This document shows, piece by piece, positions 10,788 through 29,752 of a stretch of DNA of 46,387 bases. Below the pieces are notes generated by a model. The model was not told the origin of the DNA, did no database searches, and saw only the letters and a program-made list of their open reading frames with translations. The number at the start of each line of letters is the position of its first letter. Positions within the stretch are counted from its first letter, which is position 1. The stretch lies in contig CAMMKE010000003.1 in assembly GCA_946497375.1 (NCBI GenBank), forward strand, positions 1-46,387, written 5' to 3'. This stretch comes from an uncultured Mycoplasmatota bacterium (GTDB lineage Bacteria; Bacillota_I; Bacilli_A; RF39; UBA660). A program made the position numbers and the translations under genes.

Positions 10788-10819
10788 AAAAGAGATAAGT
10801 TATTTTGCTTATCTCTTTT
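10788..10819. terminator. Bidirectional terminator, 3' of LCP gene
   Basis: AAAAGAGATAAG (10788-10799) pairs perfectly with CTTATCTCTTTT (10808-10819) across an 8-nt loop, with T-runs on both strands. It overlaps the stop codon of the minus-strand LCP gene. Confidence 0.75.
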
Positions 10820-12893
10820 AAGTTTCTGTAGAAGAATTTGGAACTCCCGGAATTGTTTCTGTAATATCTCCATCTGTTCCTCCGTTACCACCAGAACCTT
10901 CAGAACCACTGCTACCTCCAGCACTACCACCTTGTTGACTTTCATCAGTATTACCATCAGAGGAATTACCAGGTTGAGTAGTATCTACAGTATTATCACC
11001 TGTATCATCTATTTCTTCTTCCTCTTCATTATCGTTATCAGTAGGTGGAGTATAACTAGGCTCTTTATAACTACTACCAGATAATGTTAACACAACACTA
11101 CCACTTATTAAATCTATTCTTTTATTAGCAGGATAACTTTGTGCTACTACATAGCCACCAGTTCCTTTAAATGTAACATTTATACCATGAGCATTGGCAT
11201 AACTTCTTGCCGCACTTTCACTATCTCCTGTAAAATCAGGTAATAAATCATAAGTAAACGCTGTTTTGTAAGGACCAGTTCCTGTTACAGTTTTCTCATA
11301 ATCTTCATCATTGATAGAGAAGGAGAACTCTTTAATCATATCAGGCTCTTTCTCACCAAGATTTATTTTCATTGCATTTATAATATCATCACGACTCTTA
11401 GTATTAGGAACATAATCCCATAAAACCATTCTACTTCTCTCATCGTAAATCATTTGACCAGTACCATCTAAATATAGTTGTTCAATGTTAATAAGGTCAG
11501 CATCATCTTTTTGTAAGGCATTATTCATAATATCTTTAGCAATGTCATAGAAAGATAAAATTTGTTGTTCTGTAAAGTTAGTATCAAGATTATTAGTAAT
11601 AGTATTTAAAACATCCATAACTTGATTAATACTTTTCATATCTTTAACTTTATTTAATATACCTTGAATTACTAATTGTTGATTTAATCCTCTGTCTAAG
11701 TCTCCTGCAGCAAGTTGTTTTCTATTTCTTGCAAGTACTAAGGCTTGTTCACCATTTAATGTTTGAACGCCTTTATTTATACAAACTTGTCCTTCACGGT
11801 TAGAGTTATCTGTACATAAGTCTTGAGGAACATCAACAGTAATACCTCCTAGAGTATCAACTAAACTAACTAAACCTTTAAAATTAATCTTAGCATAATA
11901 ATCGATCGTAACATCAAAGTAATTTTCAATCGTATCCATCATACAATCAGTACCATATGCTGCCGCATGAGTTATTTTATTTTCAGGTGTACCACTCCAA
12001 CAAGCGATTGGTACATAACTGTCTCTTGGAATACTTAACATAGTGGCATTTAAAGTATTAGGATTAAATGTAACTAGTATTAAACTATCACCATTGGCAA
12101 CAGTATTTTTTGATAAACCTTCTTCAGCAGAGTCAACTCCCATTAGAAGAATTGTAAATGGTTCTGTTACAGATTTACCTTTAGATGAACTTCTATTACT
12201 AGTACTTGCTTTTTTCATTTCTTTCTCTTTGGTTAAGATAATTTTTGTATCGCTTTCAATATTTTGATATGTTTCCATACTTACAAACATAGATGGATAA
12301 TCTGTTGGAACGAAGATTGAATCAACTTCACCATCATATAAATCAGCCATAGCTGTAAAGTAATCGTCATATTCTACTATTTCATTATCATCTTTTAATT
12401 TATTTTCTTTAATGATTTCGTTAGGAATAATATTTCCTTCTGGTGATGTTTCATCAGATAGTATTCCAATAGTGTTATCTTTTAAGTCTTTTACATCTTC
12501 TATTTCACTACTACTTGCAACTATTAGGCTACTAGAATAAGTAACTGTCTCTCTATTAATACTAGATAAAGTTCCATAAGCATACATTATTAAGCCACTA
12601 ATCGCACAGTTTATAAGTAAATAGAGTATTAAAAAGAAGGTAAGAAGCCTTGCTCTTTTTTCTTTGTGTCTTCTTTTAGACCTAACTTTAAAAATTATAA
12701 CTAAGTCTAAGACAACAAATACTCCTATAATAATATATCTAATTACTTCTTCAACTGGTCCTAATAATAGGATGTTATAAATAGCGAATATATTAGTCAG
12801 TATTACAAGGATACTAAGTATCGCTAGCCATAATCTACATTTTTTCTTTTTCTTATCTTTTTTTTCTTCAGTTTTCTCTTTATTCTTTCTCAT
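10818..12893 (-). CDS. LytR-CpsA-Psr (LCP) family protein with PASTA domain
   Basis: It probably transfers lipid-linked wall glycopolymers to peptidoglycan outside the membrane. In the 691-aa protein, three membrane segments (about 21-45, 52-69, 82-107) are followed by a region resembling a periplasmic solute-binding fold (about 118-222). The LCP domain runs from about 244 to 475, with LSIPRDSYV and the LARNRK...GDLDRGLNQQ arginines. A PASTA-like repeat follows (LPDFTGDSESAARSYA to VVLTLS), then an acidic and Gly/Ser-rich tail. A bare LCP protein is about 300-400 aa, so this is an extended architecture. It is divergent from the dockerin/cohesin operon. Confidence 0.88.
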   Translation of the reverse strand: MRKNKEKTEEKKDKKKKKCRLWLAILSILVILTNIFAIYNILLLGPVEEVIRYIIIGVFVVLDLVIIFKVRSKRRHKEKRARLLTFFLILYLLINCAISGLIMYAYGTLSSINRETVTYSSSLIVASSSEIEDVKDLKDNTIGILSDETSPEGNIIPNEIIKENKLKDDNEIVEYDDYFTAMADLYDGEVDSIFVPTDYPSMFVSMETYQNIESDTKIILTKEKEMKKASTSNRSSSKGKSVTEPFTILLMGVDSAEEGLSKNTVANGDSLILVTFNPNTLNATMLSIPRDSYVPIACWSGTPENKITHAAAYGTDCMMDTIENYFDVTIDYYAKINFKGLVSLVDTLGGITVDVPQDLCTDNSNREGQVCINKGVQTLNGEQALVLARNRKQLAAGDLDRGLNQQLVIQGILNKVKDMKSINQVMDVLNTITNNLDTNFTEQQILSFYDIAKDIMNNALQKDDADLINIEQLYLDGTGQMIYDERSRMVLWDYVPNTKSRDDIINAMKINLGEKEPDMIKEFSFSINDEDYEKTVTGTGPYKTAFTYDLLPDFTGDSESAARSYANAHGINVTFKGTGGYVVAQSYPANKRIDLISGSVVLTLSGSSYKEPSYTPPTDNDNEEEEEIDDTGDNTVDTTQPGNSSDGNTDESQQGGSAGGSSGSEGSGGNGGTDGDITETIPGVPNSSTET

Positions 12894-13072: not shown

Positions 13073-14893
13073 ATGAAGAAACTTTTTTGTATTTCATTAA
13101 TCTTTATTATGCTTTTTACTTTTATTCCTAATGTTAATGCAAGTAGTTATATAGTACTAAATACTAATAAATATTTTAGAGTAGTACCAGGAGGAGATTT
13201 TGTAGATGGTATTACGGATGGAGTTTTACTTGCAGGTACGAAAGTAGATTTAATTAGTAAAGATGGTGGCAGTGGTCATGGATGTAAAAATCCTTGGTAT
13301 AAAGTTAAGTATGATGAGAAAGTTGGCTATATTTGTTCAAGTGACCAAGTAGTTATAGATGTCGCTGATATTGACCTTAATGGGGACTTTGAAAAAGAAA
13401 TGCTTAGTAAGGGTTTTACAGAGAGTTATTTACCTTATTTAAAGGCTTTACATGAGAAACATTCCAATTGGAATTTTAAGGCTGTTAAAACTAATATTGA
13501 TTTTGATACTGCTGTTACTAATGAGAGTTATGGTGAGATTAGTTTAGTAGATGGAACTGATGAGAGCTTGAGAAGTAAAGAATGGCCATATTATCAAAAT
13601 GGAGTTTATCAAGAGATAGAACCAGGTTGGTATGTGGCTAGTAGAGATACTGTATCATATTATTTGGACCCTAGAAACTTTTTATCTGAAGAATATATCT
13701 TTATGTTTGAAGATATTAAATATAATGCTTCTATTCATACAGAAGATGCGGTTAGAGGAGTTACTAAGGGAACATTTTTAAATACTAATGAATACTTAGA
13801 TATTTTAATGAAAACGGCAAGAACATATAATATTAGTCCTGTTTATATTGCTAGTAGAATTAGACAAGAAAAAGGCTCAAGTGATAGTATTTCTACTACA
13901 GGAGAAGCTTTTACTTATGAAGTTGATAATAATTGTTTAAATAATTTAGGTTATACTAGTAATCCTAATAGTTGGAATGCACTTAACTCTTGTGGTAGTG
14001 GTAGAGTTTACAGTGGCATTTATAATTACTTTAATATTGGAGCCTATGGTTCTTATAAGTCTCCCCAGATTAGAGGCTTGATTTGGGCGAATGGTGGTTT
14101 TGATGCTTCTGTTAATACTTATAATAGGCCTTGGAATAGTAAAGAAAAAGCGATTATGGGTGGTGTTAACTATATTGTAGGTGCTTATGTAAATAATGGT
14201 CAAAACACTTTATATTATCAGAAGTTTAATGTCGCACCTGATGCAGTCTATCCTACTTATACTCATCAGTATATGACTAATATAAGAGCAGCTTCAAGTG
14301 AAGCTTATAGTACTTATAAGAGTTATAGAGATAATGACTTGTTAGGAAATAGTTATGAGTTTTTAATACCGGTTTATAATAATATGCCTAATGATAATGA
14401 AGTAATACTTCCAGATGATGAAGATAAGGAAGAAGAAATCGTTACAACTCCAGAGATTGATATTAATACAGGTGTGGTTGGAGCAGGCTTTAAGATAGAT
14501 GGTGATGTTATTTCTAATATTTCCTTTAATACTAATGTTGATGTAATTAATAGTAAGTTAAGTAGTGTTAATGCTAATTTGAAAGTTACTAGTTATTTAG
14601 ATAGATATGGAAATAAAGCTAGTGGTAATGTTGGTACAGGGGATACTTTAGTAATTACTAATGGTTCTACTACGAAGTCTTATAAAGTAGTTATCTATGG
14701 TGATAATAATGGTGATGGTAAAGTTAGTATTCTTGATTTACTTAGAGTACAAAAAGATATTTTAGGAAGTAGTAGTCTATCTACTTATGATAAAAAAGCT
14801 AGTGATACTAATAGAGATGGTAAGATTGATGTCGTTGACTTATTAAGAGTTCAAAAACAATTACTAGGAAATAATGTTATAGAACAGGGATGA
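13073..14893 (+). CDS. Secreted N-acetylglucosaminidase (GH73-like) with C-terminal dockerin
   Basis: Predicted peptidoglycan hydrolase, 606 aa. It has a signal peptide (cleavage near VNA|SS, residue ~24), an SH3-like region (about 28-97) and a GH73-type glucosaminidase domain (about 120-410, including PVYIASRIRQEKGSS and a YNYFNIGAYGS stretch). An acidic linker and a beta-rich domain lead to a type I dockerin (543-600). Both Ca2+ loops are intact: DNNGDGKVSILD and DTNRDGKIDVVD, each followed by LLRVQK. Dockerins bind cohesins, and the next gene encodes a cohesin-like membrane protein, so this enzyme may be docked at the cell surface. First gene of a four-gene operon. Confidence 0.88.
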   Translation: MKKLFCISLIFIMLFTFIPNVNASSYIVLNTNKYFRVVPGGDFVDGITDGVLLAGTKVDLISKDGGSGHGCKNPWYKVKYDEKVGYICSSDQVVIDVADIDLNGDFEKEMLSKGFTESYLPYLKALHEKHSNWNFKAVKTNIDFDTAVTNESYGEISLVDGTDESLRSKEWPYYQNGVYQEIEPGWYVASRDTVSYYLDPRNFLSEEYIFMFEDIKYNASIHTEDAVRGVTKGTFLNTNEYLDILMKTARTYNISPVYIASRIRQEKGSSDSISTTGEAFTYEVDNNCLNNLGYTSNPNSWNALNSCGSGRVYSGIYNYFNIGAYGSYKSPQIRGLIWANGGFDASVNTYNRPWNSKEKAIMGGVNYIVGAYVNNGQNTLYYQKFNVAPDAVYPTYTHQYMTNIRAASSEAYSTYKSYRDNDLLGNSYEFLIPVYNNMPNDNEVILPDDEDKEEEIVTTPEIDINTGVVGAGFKIDGDVISNISFNTNVDVINSKLSSVNANLKVTSYLDRYGNKASGNVGTGDTLVITNGSTTKSYKVVIYGDNNGDGKVSILDLLRVQKDILGSSSLSTYDKKASDTNRDGKIDVVDLLRVQKQLLGNNVIEQG

Positions 14894-14899
14894 TGCTTT

Positions 14900-16225
14900 A
14901 TGAAGAAAATATTATTTATATTAGGACTTAGCTTCCTTTTCTTTTGCCCTCATGTAGTAGATGCTGCTTCAATCTCAGTAGCAGGGACAACATCAACGGG
15001 GACAGTTGGAGGTAATATTACAGTAGGAGTTACTATAAGTGAAGCGAGTGGACTAGGCAGTTGGGAATATAGTCTAGATTATGATAGTAGTAAACTACAA
15101 CTTTTAAGTGGTAATACTCATGTCGTTGGTTATGTAGATAGAGAAGGACAAACTAGTCAAAGTTATACTTATACTTTTAGAGTTAAAGGTACTGGTTCTA
15201 CTACTATATCTGTTGTTAATACGGCTATCGCTTCTTGGGATGAAGTAGTTACTAGTCCAACTGATAGTACAACTATTAATTTGATTAGTCGTGGGGAAGT
15301 AGAGAAAAACTATAGTAGTGACAATAACCTTGCTAGTTTAGAAGTAGAAGGTTATTCCCTAAGCCCAGAGTTTAATAAAAATACTACCAATTATAAAGTA
15401 GAAGTAGATAGTGATACTACTAGTGTTAATGTTAAAGCAACGGCAAATGATAGTAAGGCAAGGATTAGTGGTATTGGTGATATAGAAGTAGGAGAAGGTG
15501 CTAATACTATAAATGTGGTGGTGGAAGCTGAAAATGGTTCTACTAAGACTTATACAATAGTTGTTAATGTTAAAGAAAAAGACCCTATTAATGTAAAAGT
15601 AGATAAAGAAGATTTAAGTGTAGTTAGAAAAAGTGATGAGTTAAAAGACTTAGTTAAAGATTATTATGTAGAGACTACTGTTAAAATAAATGATGAAGAA
15701 GTTCCTGCTTATAAAATAGAAGCCTTAGACCTTACTTTAGTCGCTTTAAAAGATGATAAAGGTAATATTAAGTTTTATACTTATGATGATGGAAAATATT
15801 CTTTATACCAAGAGTTAAGTGGTGGAAACCTTATAATTCATTTTTTAGATAAAGGAAAATATCCTGCCAATTATAAGAAATATACAGTTACTATAGATGG
15901 AGAAAAATATACTGTCTATAAATTAAATAAAAAATCTAAATATTATTTAGTCTATGGCGAGAATGTTGAAACAGGTAAGAAAGGTTTATACTTATATGAT
16001 AGTGTTGATAAGAGTGTCCAAAGATATTATACTGAAGAAGTAGAGAGCCTAAATGATGAGTTAAAAATTAATTCATATATAATAGTTGGTCTTACTTGTT
16101 TAATAGTTTTATTATTAATAATTTTCTTAATCGTATTACATACTAAGAATAGTAGTAAAAGAAAGACTAAAAGAGAAATAAAGAAAAGATTAAAACAAGA
16201 GAAGAATGATTTCTTAAAAGATTAG
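14900..16225 (+). CDS. Membrane-anchored cohesin-like plus cadherin-like domain protein
   Basis: Surface protein (441 aa) with a signal peptide (cleavage near VDA|AS, residue ~23). A cohesin-like beta-sandwich follows (about 24-130: VGGNITVGVTISEASGLGSW, LDYDSSKLQL, YTFRVKGTGSTTIS). Next come a cadherin-like beta-sandwich domain (about 143-227), a further beta-rich domain, one C-terminal membrane helix (about 391-413) and a basic cytoplasmic tail. There is no LPxTG motif. It sits 6 bp after the dockerin-bearing hydrolase, so the natural inference is that it is the docking receptor. The cohesin assignment is by pattern and needs a profile or structure check. Confidence 0.78.
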   Translation: MKKILFILGLSFLFFCPHVVDAASISVAGTTSTGTVGGNITVGVTISEASGLGSWEYSLDYDSSKLQLLSGNTHVVGYVDREGQTSQSYTYTFRVKGTGSTTISVVNTAIASWDEVVTSPTDSTTINLISRGEVEKNYSSDNNLASLEVEGYSLSPEFNKNTTNYKVEVDSDTTSVNVKATANDSKARISGIGDIEVGEGANTINVVVEAENGSTKTYTIVVNVKEKDPINVKVDKEDLSVVRKSDELKDLVKDYYVETTVKINDEEVPAYKIEALDLTLVALKDDKGNIKFYTYDDGKYSLYQELSGGNLIIHFLDKGKYPANYKKYTVTIDGEKYTVYKLNKKSKYYLVYGENVETGKKGLYLYDSVDKSVQRYYTEEVESLNDELKINSYIIVGLTCLIVLLLIIFLIVLHTKNSSKRKTKREIKKRLKQEKNDFLKD

Positions 16226-16237
16226 GAGTGTAGTTTT

Positions 16238-16876
16238 ATGGAAGCGAAAAGTCATAATAAACATCTAGGTATTTTAATATTTATTGGTTTTTTATTAATT
16301 ATTATTGGAATTGTTTCTTATATAGTTATTAATTATAATAGTGACCAAGCTGAAGTTAAAAGACGAATGGATGAAGTAAGAGAGTCTTATAAGACTTTTA
16401 AAACTGATATAGAGAGCTTTAATAGTATTAGAGAAGATATCTATACTAATGTTATTACTGATAATATGTATTATCAAACTTTAAAAGATAATGATGCTAG
16501 TTATAAAGAGATATTTAATAATTATAAGGATAGTTTAGAGAAAATTGATAAAGATTATAATGGAGTAAAAGATAAATGTATTAATGTTTTACATCCTGAA
16601 GCGGATGTTAATAATAAGTGTGAAGCGATTATTTCTTCTTATGAAGAGGTAGTTAATACTTATGTAAGTGATGTTAATAGTTATAATAATTTAATTACTT
16701 CTTATAACAAATGGTTAACTGATACTAATGGTAGTGATACTAAATTGGAAAAGATAAAGTCAGATAGAGATTATATAGATATAAATGGTGATAGAGAGTA
16801 TAATGGTAAAAAAGAAGTAGAAAAAGAAATAAGTGATGAAGAAGAGGATAATACAGGAGTGGTACCAGATGAATAG
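16238..16876 (+). CDS. Single-pass membrane protein with coiled-coil ectodomain
   Basis: The 212-aa protein has a membrane helix at about residues 10-32 and then a long polar, probably helical/coiled-coil region (about 36-175) rich in Asp, Glu, Lys and Asn. It contains two Cys (DKCINV, NKCEAI) close enough to pair. No catalytic motif was recognised. It lies 12 bp after the cohesin gene and overlaps the glycosidase gene by 8 bp, so it is probably a structural partner in the same envelope system. Confidence 0.72.
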   Translation: MEAKSHNKHLGILIFIGFLLIIIGIVSYIVINYNSDQAEVKRRMDEVRESYKTFKTDIESFNSIREDIYTNVITDNMYYQTLKDNDASYKEIFNNYKDSLEKIDKDYNGVKDKCINVLHPEADVNNKCEAIISSYEEVVNTYVSDVNSYNNLITSYNKWLTDTNGSDTKLEKIKSDRDYIDINGDREYNGKKEVEKEISDEEEDNTGVVPDE

Positions 16877-17954
16877 AAATGACTTAGATAAGACAATTTT
16901 AATGCCTAGTATTGCTAGTGAAATAAAAAAAGAAAAAAGAAAAGAGAAGAGGTTGGTTACTAAGGTAATAATCGCTTTGTTTATAATAGGAAGTTCTCTT
17001 TCTTTATTTCTTTTTTATGGACCGATAAGTGGCTTTCGTAACTTTTGGATAACTTCAGCGATGACTTCTATGTCTCATCAATATCTTGCTACTTGGTTTT
17101 ATAATGATGATGTTATTAATGAAGTGTTATCTAATAATCATATAATTGAAGTAGATGAAAATACTAATCCGGATTTAATTAATTTTAAAGATTATGATAC
17201 TAATGCTAAGATTTATAAAAATGAATATGAAAAACAAATTTTAACAAAAGACCCAGGAAATGATTTATATAAAGTTATTGAAGTTAGTGGTAGTGGCTAT
17301 CAAGGTTATTTAGTAGCGATATATGACCCGTCCCGTGTTTCTATTGCGACAACGGCTTATCTTGGTAAAAGAGGAGAAGCGATTACTACAGTTGCAAAAA
17401 GAGAAAATGCTATAATTGCCATTAACGCAGGTGGCTTTTATGACCCTGATTGGAATAGTAATGGTGCCCTACCTCATGGAACTGTCATTAAAGATGGAAA
17501 GATTGTAAGTGATTATGAAGATGCTAGAATGGGAGGAGGCTTTGTTGGCTTTACTAAAGATAATAAATTAGTACTTGGTAAGATGACTAAGGAAGAAGCA
17601 CTTGATATGGGGATGAGGGATGCCATTGAGTTTGGACCTTTCTTAATCGTAAATGGTAAGAGTAGTTTTGTTAAAGGTAATGGTGGTTGGGGTATTGCAC
17701 CTAGAACTGCTATTGGTCAAAGAGAAGATGGTATAGTCTTATTCTTAGTAATTAATGGACGTCTTGCCACATCTATTGGTGCTGATATGGGAGACTTAAC
17801 TGAGATAATGGAAAACTATGGTGCTGTTAATGCTGCTAATATGGATGGTGGAAGTTCTAGTGCTTTAGTTATAAATAATGAAATTATTAATACACCAGTT
17901 GCAGGTGGTGATAATGGTCTTAGAGATATACCAACATTTTGGATAGTTAAGTAA
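16869..17954 (+). CDS. Membrane-anchored phosphodiester glycosidase (NAGPA family)
   Basis: The 361-aa protein has a short cytoplasmic segment, one membrane helix (about 33-55) and an extracytoplasmic NAGPA domain. Family signatures are AIIAINAGGFYDP, HGTVIKDGKIVSD, APRTAIGQ and AANMDGGSSSALV. Family members cleave sugar phosphodiesters (GlcNAc-1-phosphodiester alpha-GlcNAcase); in Gram-positives a cell-wall glycopolymer is a plausible substrate. ATG 16833 is in frame, but ATG 16869 follows AGGAG (16854-16858) and gives the typical N-terminus. It ends in a terminator and is the last gene of the dockerin/cohesin operon. Confidence 0.88.
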   Translation: MNRNDLDKTILMPSIASEIKKEKRKEKRLVTKVIIALFIIGSSLSLFLFYGPISGFRNFWITSAMTSMSHQYLATWFYNDDVINEVLSNNHIIEVDENTNPDLINFKDYDTNAKIYKNEYEKQILTKDPGNDLYKVIEVSGSGYQGYLVAIYDPSRVSIATTAYLGKRGEAITTVAKRENAIIAINAGGFYDPDWNSNGALPHGTVIKDGKIVSDYEDARMGGGFVGFTKDNKLVLGKMTKEEALDMGMRDAIEFGPFLIVNGKSSFVKGNGGWGIAPRTAIGQREDGIVLFLVINGRLATSIGADMGDLTEIMENYGAVNAANMDGGSSSALVINNEIINTPVAGGDNGLRDIPTFWIVK

Positions 17955-28795: not shown

Positions 28796-29752
28796 ATGCT
28801 TTTAGATATAGTTATTTTATTAATAGGCTTTGTAATAATCATTAAATCATCAGATGTTTTAGTAGATGCTGCTTCATCTTTAGCTTTAAAGTTAAGAGTT
28901 CCTAAGATGTTAATTGCTCTTACAATTGTTTCCTTTGGTACTTGTGCTCCTGAAGTTGCTATATCTTTTAGAAGTGTTGCAAATGGTGATGGAGTTATGG
29001 CTTTTGCAAATGTTGTAGGTAGCTCGATTGTAAATGTTTTCTTAATTATAGGACTTGCTAGTTTCTTAAGGCCTATTAAAGTAAGACATGCTACTGTTAA
29101 AAAAGAATTACCTTTACTTTTTATTGTTACAACAGCTTTTTCTTTCTTAATGCTTGATGCAGTATTTAATCCAATAACTTCAAATACTTTTTCAAGAAAT
29201 GATAGTTTTATTTTAATATTATTATTTTGTATGTTTGTTCTTTATTTAGTAGGAATGTTATTTAAAAAGAATAAAAAAGATGAGGAACAAGTGATAAGTA
29301 AGTATTCTGCTATTATGTCTTGTCTACTTTTAGTTGTTACAATTATCTTAATAGTTTATAGTAGTGATATGATTGTAGACTCTGCTAAAGCGATTGCTAG
29401 TGCTTTAAATATAAGTGAGAAGGCAATTACAATGACTGCTATTGTAATAGGTACAAGCTTACCTGAGATGATTATGACTGTAACAAGTGCTAGAAAAGGT
29501 GAGTTTGATATGGCTATTGGAAATATTATTGGTACTAATATCTTTAATATTTGTATAGTTTTAGGGCTTCCTATTCTTATATATGGTGATATTGTCTTAA
29601 AAGGTTTTAGTTTTATTGATATACTTGTTGTATTCCTATCTTCATTTCTTTTGTTTATCTTTGCAAGAAGTGAAAGAGAAGTTAGTAAAAAAGAAGGAAC
29701 TATTATGTTAATAGTATTTGTCCTTTATTATGTATATATGTTATTCTTTTAG
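28796..29752 (+). CDS. Calcium/sodium antiporter (CaCA family, YrbG-like)
   Basis: Membrane cation:Ca2+ exchanger. The 318-aa protein has about ten membrane segments in two inverted halves. Each half has a conserved alpha-repeat: VSFGTCAPEVAISFRS with NVVGSSIVNVFLIIG (about 43-90), and IGTSLPEMIMTVTSA with NIIGTNIFNICIVLG (about 220-265). A charged loop (KKNKKDEEQ) joins the halves. The first repeat has Cys where GTSxPE is usual. GAAGTGAT precedes the ATG. It stands alone and is probably involved in Ca2+ efflux. Confidence 0.92.
   Translation: MLLDIVILLIGFVIIIKSSDVLVDAASSLALKLRVPKMLIALTIVSFGTCAPEVAISFRSVANGDGVMAFANVVGSSIVNVFLIIGLASFLRPIKVRHATVKKELPLLFIVTTAFSFLMLDAVFNPITSNTFSRNDSFILILLFCMFVLYLVGMLFKKNKKDEEQVISKYSAIMSCLLLVVTIILIVYSSDMIVDSAKAIASALNISEKAITMTAIVIGTSLPEMIMTVTSARKGEFDMAIGNIIGTNIFNICIVLGLPILIYGDIVLKGFSFIDILVVFLSSFLLFIFARSEREVSKKEGTIMLIVFVLYYVYMLFF

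Follow-up and report, generated by a model that had tools for sequence, protein, structure and literature searches.

The stretch of DNA considered here, called the window below, comprises 46,387 nucleotides of contig CAMMKE010000003.1 (assembly GCA_946497375.1), from an uncultured Mycoplasmatota bacterium of the order RF39. At issue is a pair of genes separated by 6 bases: the first encodes a secreted, glucosaminidase-like enzyme that ends in a dockerin, and the second a membrane-anchored protein with a cohesin domain behind its signal peptide (Table 1). Most known cohesin–dockerin joints belong to polysaccharide-degrading complexes; the present pair heads a series of four genes on one strand, beside a divergent LCP gene. 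An initial annotation, made from the letters alone, had given this four-gene layout, the 6-base gap, the LCP neighbour and the phosphodiester glycosidase in fourth place, and the reading frames and Pfam matches bear it out on each point. The frame of the fourth gene opens at 16833; its likelier start (start checked) is the ATG at 16869, which overlaps the preceding stop codon.

The dockerin of the enzyme scores 51.7 bits against a cut-off of 22.9, and both of its loops, DNNGDGKVSILD and DTNRDGKIDVVD, hold all the Ca2+ ligand positions, as had been annotated; the recognition positions 10 and 11 also read as claimed, Ile-Leu in the first repeat and Val-Val in the second. Asp occupies positions 1 and 12 of both loops in all 115 sequences compared. 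The catalytic region is assigned as SagB/GH73-like because it matches the SagB-like family NF052642 of NCBIfam at E=1e-8 (34.7 bits, far under the curated cut-off of 425) and because its matches among PDB sequences are glucosaminidases or autolysins (6fxo at 1.4e-7, 5wqw at 2.5e-7). Glu266, invariant in 39 of 39 aligned enzyme sequences, is presumed to be the catalytic residue. Export is suggested by a hydrophobic N-terminus, which 167 of 172 homologs share; a transmembrane (TM)-like segment after residue 60 is absent from the window enzyme and present in one of the 172.

The second protein carries the cohesin-like domain that the initial annotation proposed, recognized through its relatives and its fold. 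The Pfam cohesin profile PF00963 found no match in the window protein at E<=1; it does match the ortholog in the nearest genome (24.8 bits, cut-off 24.1), and seven of eight homologs (P0100–P0107, 53–55% identity except P0103) carry a precomputed PF00963. A profile search for the pair was thus positive in the window for the dockerin, and for the cohesin in the ortholog and homologs. An AlphaFold 2 (AF2) model of the anchor protein (predicted local distance difference test, pLDDT, 85.4; predicted template modelling score, pTM, 0.45) gave a cohesin jelly-roll fold for the domain, with 2jh2, 2vo8 and 2w1n as the closest PDB folds on structure comparison; the A1 profile, run against PDB sequences, drew seven matches at E<=0.01, all seven cohesin or scaffoldin. 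The initial annotation was to count as refuted if the domain showed no cohesin profile and no structural resemblance; these results do not refute it. A C-terminal TM-like segment is present in 169 of 170 partner homologs of at least 380 residues. Records at 98–99% identity to the anchor protein are metagenome-assembled genomes, including Candidatus Onthousia excrementipullorum, class Bacilli. The aberrant P0103, a database protein of 370 residues, is 94% identical to part of the window protein and carries SBP_bac_3 (PF00497); it is perhaps a chimeric assembly.

Table 1. Features of the window at and around the dockerin–cohesin pair
Feature	Coordinates	Strand	Basis or remark
Glucosaminidase-dockerin gene, 606 aa, secreted, SagB/GH73-like with C-terminal dockerin	13073..14893	+	Open reading frame (ORF)
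Signal peptide of glucosaminidase, residues 1-24	13073..13144	+	Hydrophobic N-terminus; boundary by eye
Catalytic region of glucosaminidase, residues ~95-440	13355..14392	+	Glu266 codon 13868-13870
Dockerin_1, residues 542-598	14696..14866	+	PF00404 E=1e-13; Ca-binding loops 14702-14737 and 14804-14839
Membrane-anchored cohesin protein, 441 aa, with signal peptide	14900..16225	+	ORF; AF2 model
Cohesin domain of anchor protein, residues 23-131	14966..15292	+	Trp55 codon 15062-15064
Cadherin-like beta-sandwich domain of anchor protein, residues 145-223	15332..15568	+	PF12733 E=1.4e-11
C-terminal TM helix of anchor protein, followed by basic tail	16079..16135	+	KD19 3.5; translation checked
Coiled-coil protein with N-terminal TM helix, same-genus accessory	16238..16876	+	By eye
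NAGPA phosphodiester glycosidase, membrane-anchored, same-genus accessory	16869..17954	+	PF09992 E=1.5e-43
LCP glycopolymer transferase with PASTA domain	10818..12893	-	Divergent; PF03816 1.7e-43, PF03793 2.6e-7

The pair seems self-contained, as the initial annotation supposed: in the draft of the nearest genome, which is 92% complete, Pfam finds one dockerin and one cohesin, adjacent to each other, unlike the multi-cohesin scaffoldin and several dockerin-bearing carbohydrate-active enzymes by which a cellulosome is known. The annotation's remark that polysaccharide-degrading genes are absent also agrees with a Pfam search that covered 25 of the 42 ORFs in the window with 120 aa or more, where only a weak GH4 match appeared, outscored on its own ORF by much stronger lactate/malate dehydrogenase matches.

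Of 385 genomes of the order, all of them drafts and mutually related, 316 have a Pfam dockerin and 212 a Pfam cohesin. A whole-partner profile matched 331 at E<=1e-15; of these, 288 were counted as having an ortholog, at a threshold (E<1e-60) chosen after the list was seen. Dockerin and partner occur together in 286 genomes, and 67 have neither; the dockerin is found without the partner in 30, and the partner without the dockerin in only two (Fisher p=2e-48, relatedness ignored). The catalytic domain, among the matches listed (to E ~3e-11), occurs in two of the 97 partner-less genomes, one of them as a fragment; taken with the joint presence and absence, this sparseness argues that enzyme, dockerin and partner have been gained and lost largely as one unit.

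Gene order agrees. From the dockerin matches, 120 loci were taken in order of E-value (for G014 the second match; G329, G295, G103, G311, G190, G036, G350, G330, G377, G183, G158 and G145 were passed over). Glucosaminidase is encoded at 114 of them, a fraction that overstates its share of dockerins, as genomes were passed over either inadvertently or for open frames that bore little likeness to the glucosaminidase. At all 114 the partner is the next gene, at a spacing of −11 to +21 nt. The other six (L120, L139, L143, L156, L168 and L169) carry other dockerin proteins, with a partner-like gene downstream in L139 and L169 as well. When loci were selected by the partner instead, 60 of them from genomes outside the dockerin-locus set (at least 13 such genomes were left out), a catalytic-plus-dockerin gene lay upstream in 57, and the other three end at contig ends. 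Some loci of the survey are likewise cut by contig ends, and at L206 the partner is divided over two frames. The remaining genes of the proposed wall operon and the LCP neighbour are less constant: a coiled-coil homolog follows the pair in 5 of the 101 loci in which the next gene is visible, all of the same genus; the NAGPA gene accompanies only those same five among the 120; and the LCP gene stands divergently right beside the pair in 37 of 109 loci. What is conserved as a unit is the first two genes.

Relatives also hold dockerins and cohesins in other arrangements. In L139 (1054-14199, relative G170), two adjacent proteins with cohesin and cadherin-like domains lie alongside dockerin proteins, one of which combines a papain-type cysteine peptidase with lectin-like domains; this reads as a second cohesin–dockerin system with peptidase cargo. 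Long frames of ~2400 aa that start with a cohesin, several of which are present among relatives, include those of L045 (1-1956, minus strand) and L040 (1420-3348); that of L045 has a dockerin match further along, at 26.9 bits.

Covariation of the two domains was measured in 172 pairs (an effective 110 at 70% identity) as normalised mutual information (MI) above 0.25, with columns of mean MI below 0.03 excluded; before this exclusion the dockerin–catalytic maximum was 0.44, from near-invariant columns. Between dockerin and cohesin, 70 column pairs exceed the threshold (of 57x107); between dockerin and cadherin-like domain, none does (of 63x86), nor between dockerin and the remainder of the partner (0 of 59x153), and between dockerin and catalytic domain there are three (of 59x290). 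The top dockerin columns, 556/590, 561/595, 564/598 and 560/594, are positions 13, 18, 21 and 17 of both repeats; the top cohesin columns are 61, 62, 55, 44, 52, 68, 75 and 76. Positions 10 and 11, the classical specificity positions according to the available text of PMC8063739, yield fewer strong pairs here.

The two repeats resemble each other at positions 10, 11, 13, 14, 17, 18 and 21 (identity 0.87–0.99, shuffled means 0.32–0.67), and positions 3, 9, 15 and 20 likewise exceed the shuffled identity. In the window dockerin they match at 13–18 and 21 and differ at 10/11. Such likeness at face positions is as expected if the dockerin could be bound by either face.

The covarying residues sort the pairs into classes. 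A dockerin that reads Leu13-Gln17-Lys18 is paired with a long cohesin that carries Trp55; one that reads Tyr13-Lys17-Asn18 has a shorter partner domain, with Phe in the place of Trp55; the rarer classes LRQ, MKK and FKK have partner forms of their own. Trp55 is present in 132 of 143 pairs with Leu, Met or Ile at position 13, and in one of 29 with Tyr or Phe. On the tree of the catalytic domain (115 pairs), the dockerin changes class nine times and the partner eight, and in a Pagel test, run on a quick tree with a midpoint root, the correlated model beats the independent one (likelihood ratio 47, p=1.3e-9).

The arrangement extends beyond the order. In a class-wide sample of 395 genomes the partner is found at E<=1e-30 in 62, of which 20 lie outside this family and order. 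Twenty of the 24 listed out-of-order matches were taken as loci (G562, G598 and two of G653 were left out), and a custom dockerin profile places a dockerin gene directly upstream of the partner in 18; 15 of these dockerins pass the Pfam cut-off. The remaining two loci, L333 and L334, have short partners that lack the N-terminal domain, with no dockerin gene nearby. By Pfam, 14 of the 18 cargoes carry PF01832 (one below cut-off), and GH25, Amidase_2 and a metallo-beta-lactamase fold occur once each; the remaining cargo, of L315, matches the order's own glucosaminidase catalytic profile at 6e-100. Cargoes of wall-hydrolase type thus make up 17 of 18, with three chemistries. The partner in L321 is 100% identical to a protein of Longibaculum muris, a genus placed in Coprobacillaceae, Erysipelotrichales (NCBI scheme); its relatives are named from Massilimicrobiota, Stoquefichus and Coprobacillus, and are mostly annotated ‘cadherin-like beta sandwich domain-containing protein’.

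One way to understand these observations, to which we give a probability of a little over three in four, is as a dedicated non-cellulosomal cohesin–dockerin module that docks a secreted SagB/GH73-like glucosaminidase onto a membrane-anchored partner, for membrane-proximal glycan processing. That is, the glucosaminidase would be exported and its dockerin would fold on Ca2+; the folded dockerin would bind, perhaps in two modes, the cohesin of an anchor that a single C-terminal helix fixes in the cytoplasmic membrane; the docked enzyme would be kept at the membrane–wall interface, where new glycan is made, and would there trim or release newly made strands; docking would also keep it from diffusing away as a free autolysin. 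The initial annotation's proposal of an autolysin docked to a membrane-anchored cohesin is supported in this sense: adjacency, joint presence and absence, covariation and the wall-hydrolase cargo of distant loci all fit.

Several observations weigh against this account. Its enzyme is not matched by the Pfam Glucosaminidase profile PF01832 at E<=1, so that this part of the annotated ‘secreted glucosaminidase’ stands on the NF052642 and PDB matches without it. The Tyr/Phe13 class, 29 of the 172 pairs, has mostly the short form of the partner domain, of ~95 residues; the one short form modelled (L132, 3257-4567; pLDDT 86.6) scores higher against generic Ig-like folds than against cohesins, and the cohesin may have been replaced or reduced in these loci. 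Outside the order, the N-terminal domain of the partner matches the custom cohesin profile (built from 115 partners, short forms included) in only 12 of 18 cases, and one dockerin of the 18 (L322, 2736-3953) sits beside its partner on a metallo-beta-lactamase-fold protein, the lone cargo that is not of wall-hydrolase type. In the covariation data, 28 cohesin–catalytic column pairs (of 106x286) also exceed 0.25, so shared descent contributes some of the MI signal. The supported switches are few: an independent-pairs test, stricter than the Pagel test, found six, about four in the same direction and none opposite (sign test p=0.125). As the dockerin and cohesin segments adjoin in the DNA, one recombination could swap both, and they would then switch together without contact.

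These last two points are also what would be seen if the domains were relics of a larger docking system, no longer binding, their adjacency and co-switching reflecting only inheritance as a block. We consider this improbable. Calcium-loop positions 1 and 12 are invariant in 115 of 115 sequences; the two repeats stay alike at their face positions; and the covariation gathers at those face positions of each repeat and at a small number of cohesin strands. That the adjoining cadherin-like domain gives no MI signal with the dockerin speaks against block exchange as the full explanation.

A further difficulty is that some relatives have additional dockerins or cohesins, so that pairing there may not be exclusive. 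Taken to its limit, this would have the dockerin bind another cohesin in the cell, the neighbour serving a different client; many relatives do encode other cohesin proteins, in frames of 2400–4000 aa in some cases. The single dockerin and single cohesin of the nearest genome make such an arrangement very improbable, though Pfam misses some cohesins, that of the window included.

The docking module proposed here resembles several known systems in part. Cellulosomal type I pairs (C. thermocellum, C. cellulolyticum) share its dockerin family (PF00404), its cohesin fold and the duplicated dockerin faces; here, in contrast, one cohesin sits on an anchor held by a TM helix instead of a surface-layer homology (SLH) or sortase anchor, the cargo is a probable peptidoglycan hydrolase, and the recognition positions are Ile-Leu/Val-Val. 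The non-cellulosomal cohesins of C. perfringens GH84C and GH33 include the closest PDB folds named above and also work outside a cellulosome; from the available part of PMC12997984, they and their dockerins are borne by glycoside hydrolases and apparently bring enzymes into contact two by two, whereas the window cohesin forms part of a membrane anchor that would serve a wall enzyme. The closest functional parallel may be S. aureus SagB with the membrane protein SpdC, which together, in the text available of PMC12272431, cut nascent glycan free of its membrane anchor. Like SagB, the SagB-like glucosaminidase of the window would act at the membrane together with a partner integral to that membrane, and it is by this analogy that a membrane-proximal role in glycan processing is suggested; SpdC belongs to the CAAX protease family, and the window pair would use a cohesin–dockerin joint on a single-pass anchor.

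Wall-hydrolase-type domains with dockerins are also found in Ruminococcus. RflaF_05439 (NlpC/P60) reportedly binds ScaE, a cohesin of the cell surface, a result given as unpublished in the accessible portion of PMC3573020; such enzymes are side cargo of a cellulosome, as distinct from a dedicated two-gene unit without one. For the dockerin-containing wall hydrolases of the Ruminococcus champanellensis cellulosome a lytic complex (‘lyticome’) has been proposed (PMC6403190, available part), and the window pair might, by extension, dock to form a weapon or feeding apparatus on the cell surface, for lysis of neighbouring bacteria and not for growth of the cell's own wall. This seems unlikely: the TM helix of the partner would place the enzyme beneath the wall; 11 of 12 dockerin-positive genomes of the same genus have one dockerin, which leaves no room for a multi-enzyme complex; and the frequent LCP neighbour points to work on the cell's own wall.

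Of 289,232 gut genomes searched in an earlier study, 4,333 carried both modules, with follow-up on mucin enzymes in the sections available (PMC12997984). Among the literature matches listed (most subscription journals and all preprints were outside their scope), no account of a dedicated membrane-anchored cohesin–dockerin pair for wall hydrolases appeared, and the available portions of PMC9765747, PMC5817068, PMC11557425 and PMC12484212 hold nothing on such a module.

A broader perspective, which we hold less firmly and favour only somewhat, extends the docking module across Bacilli (in the GTDB sense; this order and other families, including cultured Longibaculum muris). In this perspective a cellulosome-independent, one-to-one dockerin joint would be a standard means of fixing interchangeable peptidoglycan hydrolases (glucosaminidase, GH25 muramidase, amidase) to an anchor that spans the membrane once. 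The specificity of the joint would have been rewired repeatedly, including in lineages where the cohesin has shrunk to a plain Ig-like domain, or given way to one, and the dockerin face has changed to match.

Already within the order, the joint seems to serve own-wall biology in about three-quarters of sampled genomes (the 286 with both dockerin and partner), and, outside it, in at least one cultured relative, in which such a role can be tested. If the docking account is right, it offers one general solution to the retention of a secreted autolysin at the membrane; nearly 300 pairs with repeated specificity switches would form a natural series from which to learn a recognition code; wall hydrolysis would have a possible link to the origin of cellulosome joints; and a genome with dockerin and cohesin would not by itself be proof of a cellulosome.

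Two other features of the window may be recorded. A sodium/calcium exchanger (PF01699) lies at 28796-29752, 11 kb from the pair, and any tie to a Ca2+-dependent dock is speculation only. The LCP protein has a phosphonate-binding-like segment at residues 117-205 (Pfam, 28.5 bits, cut-off 27).

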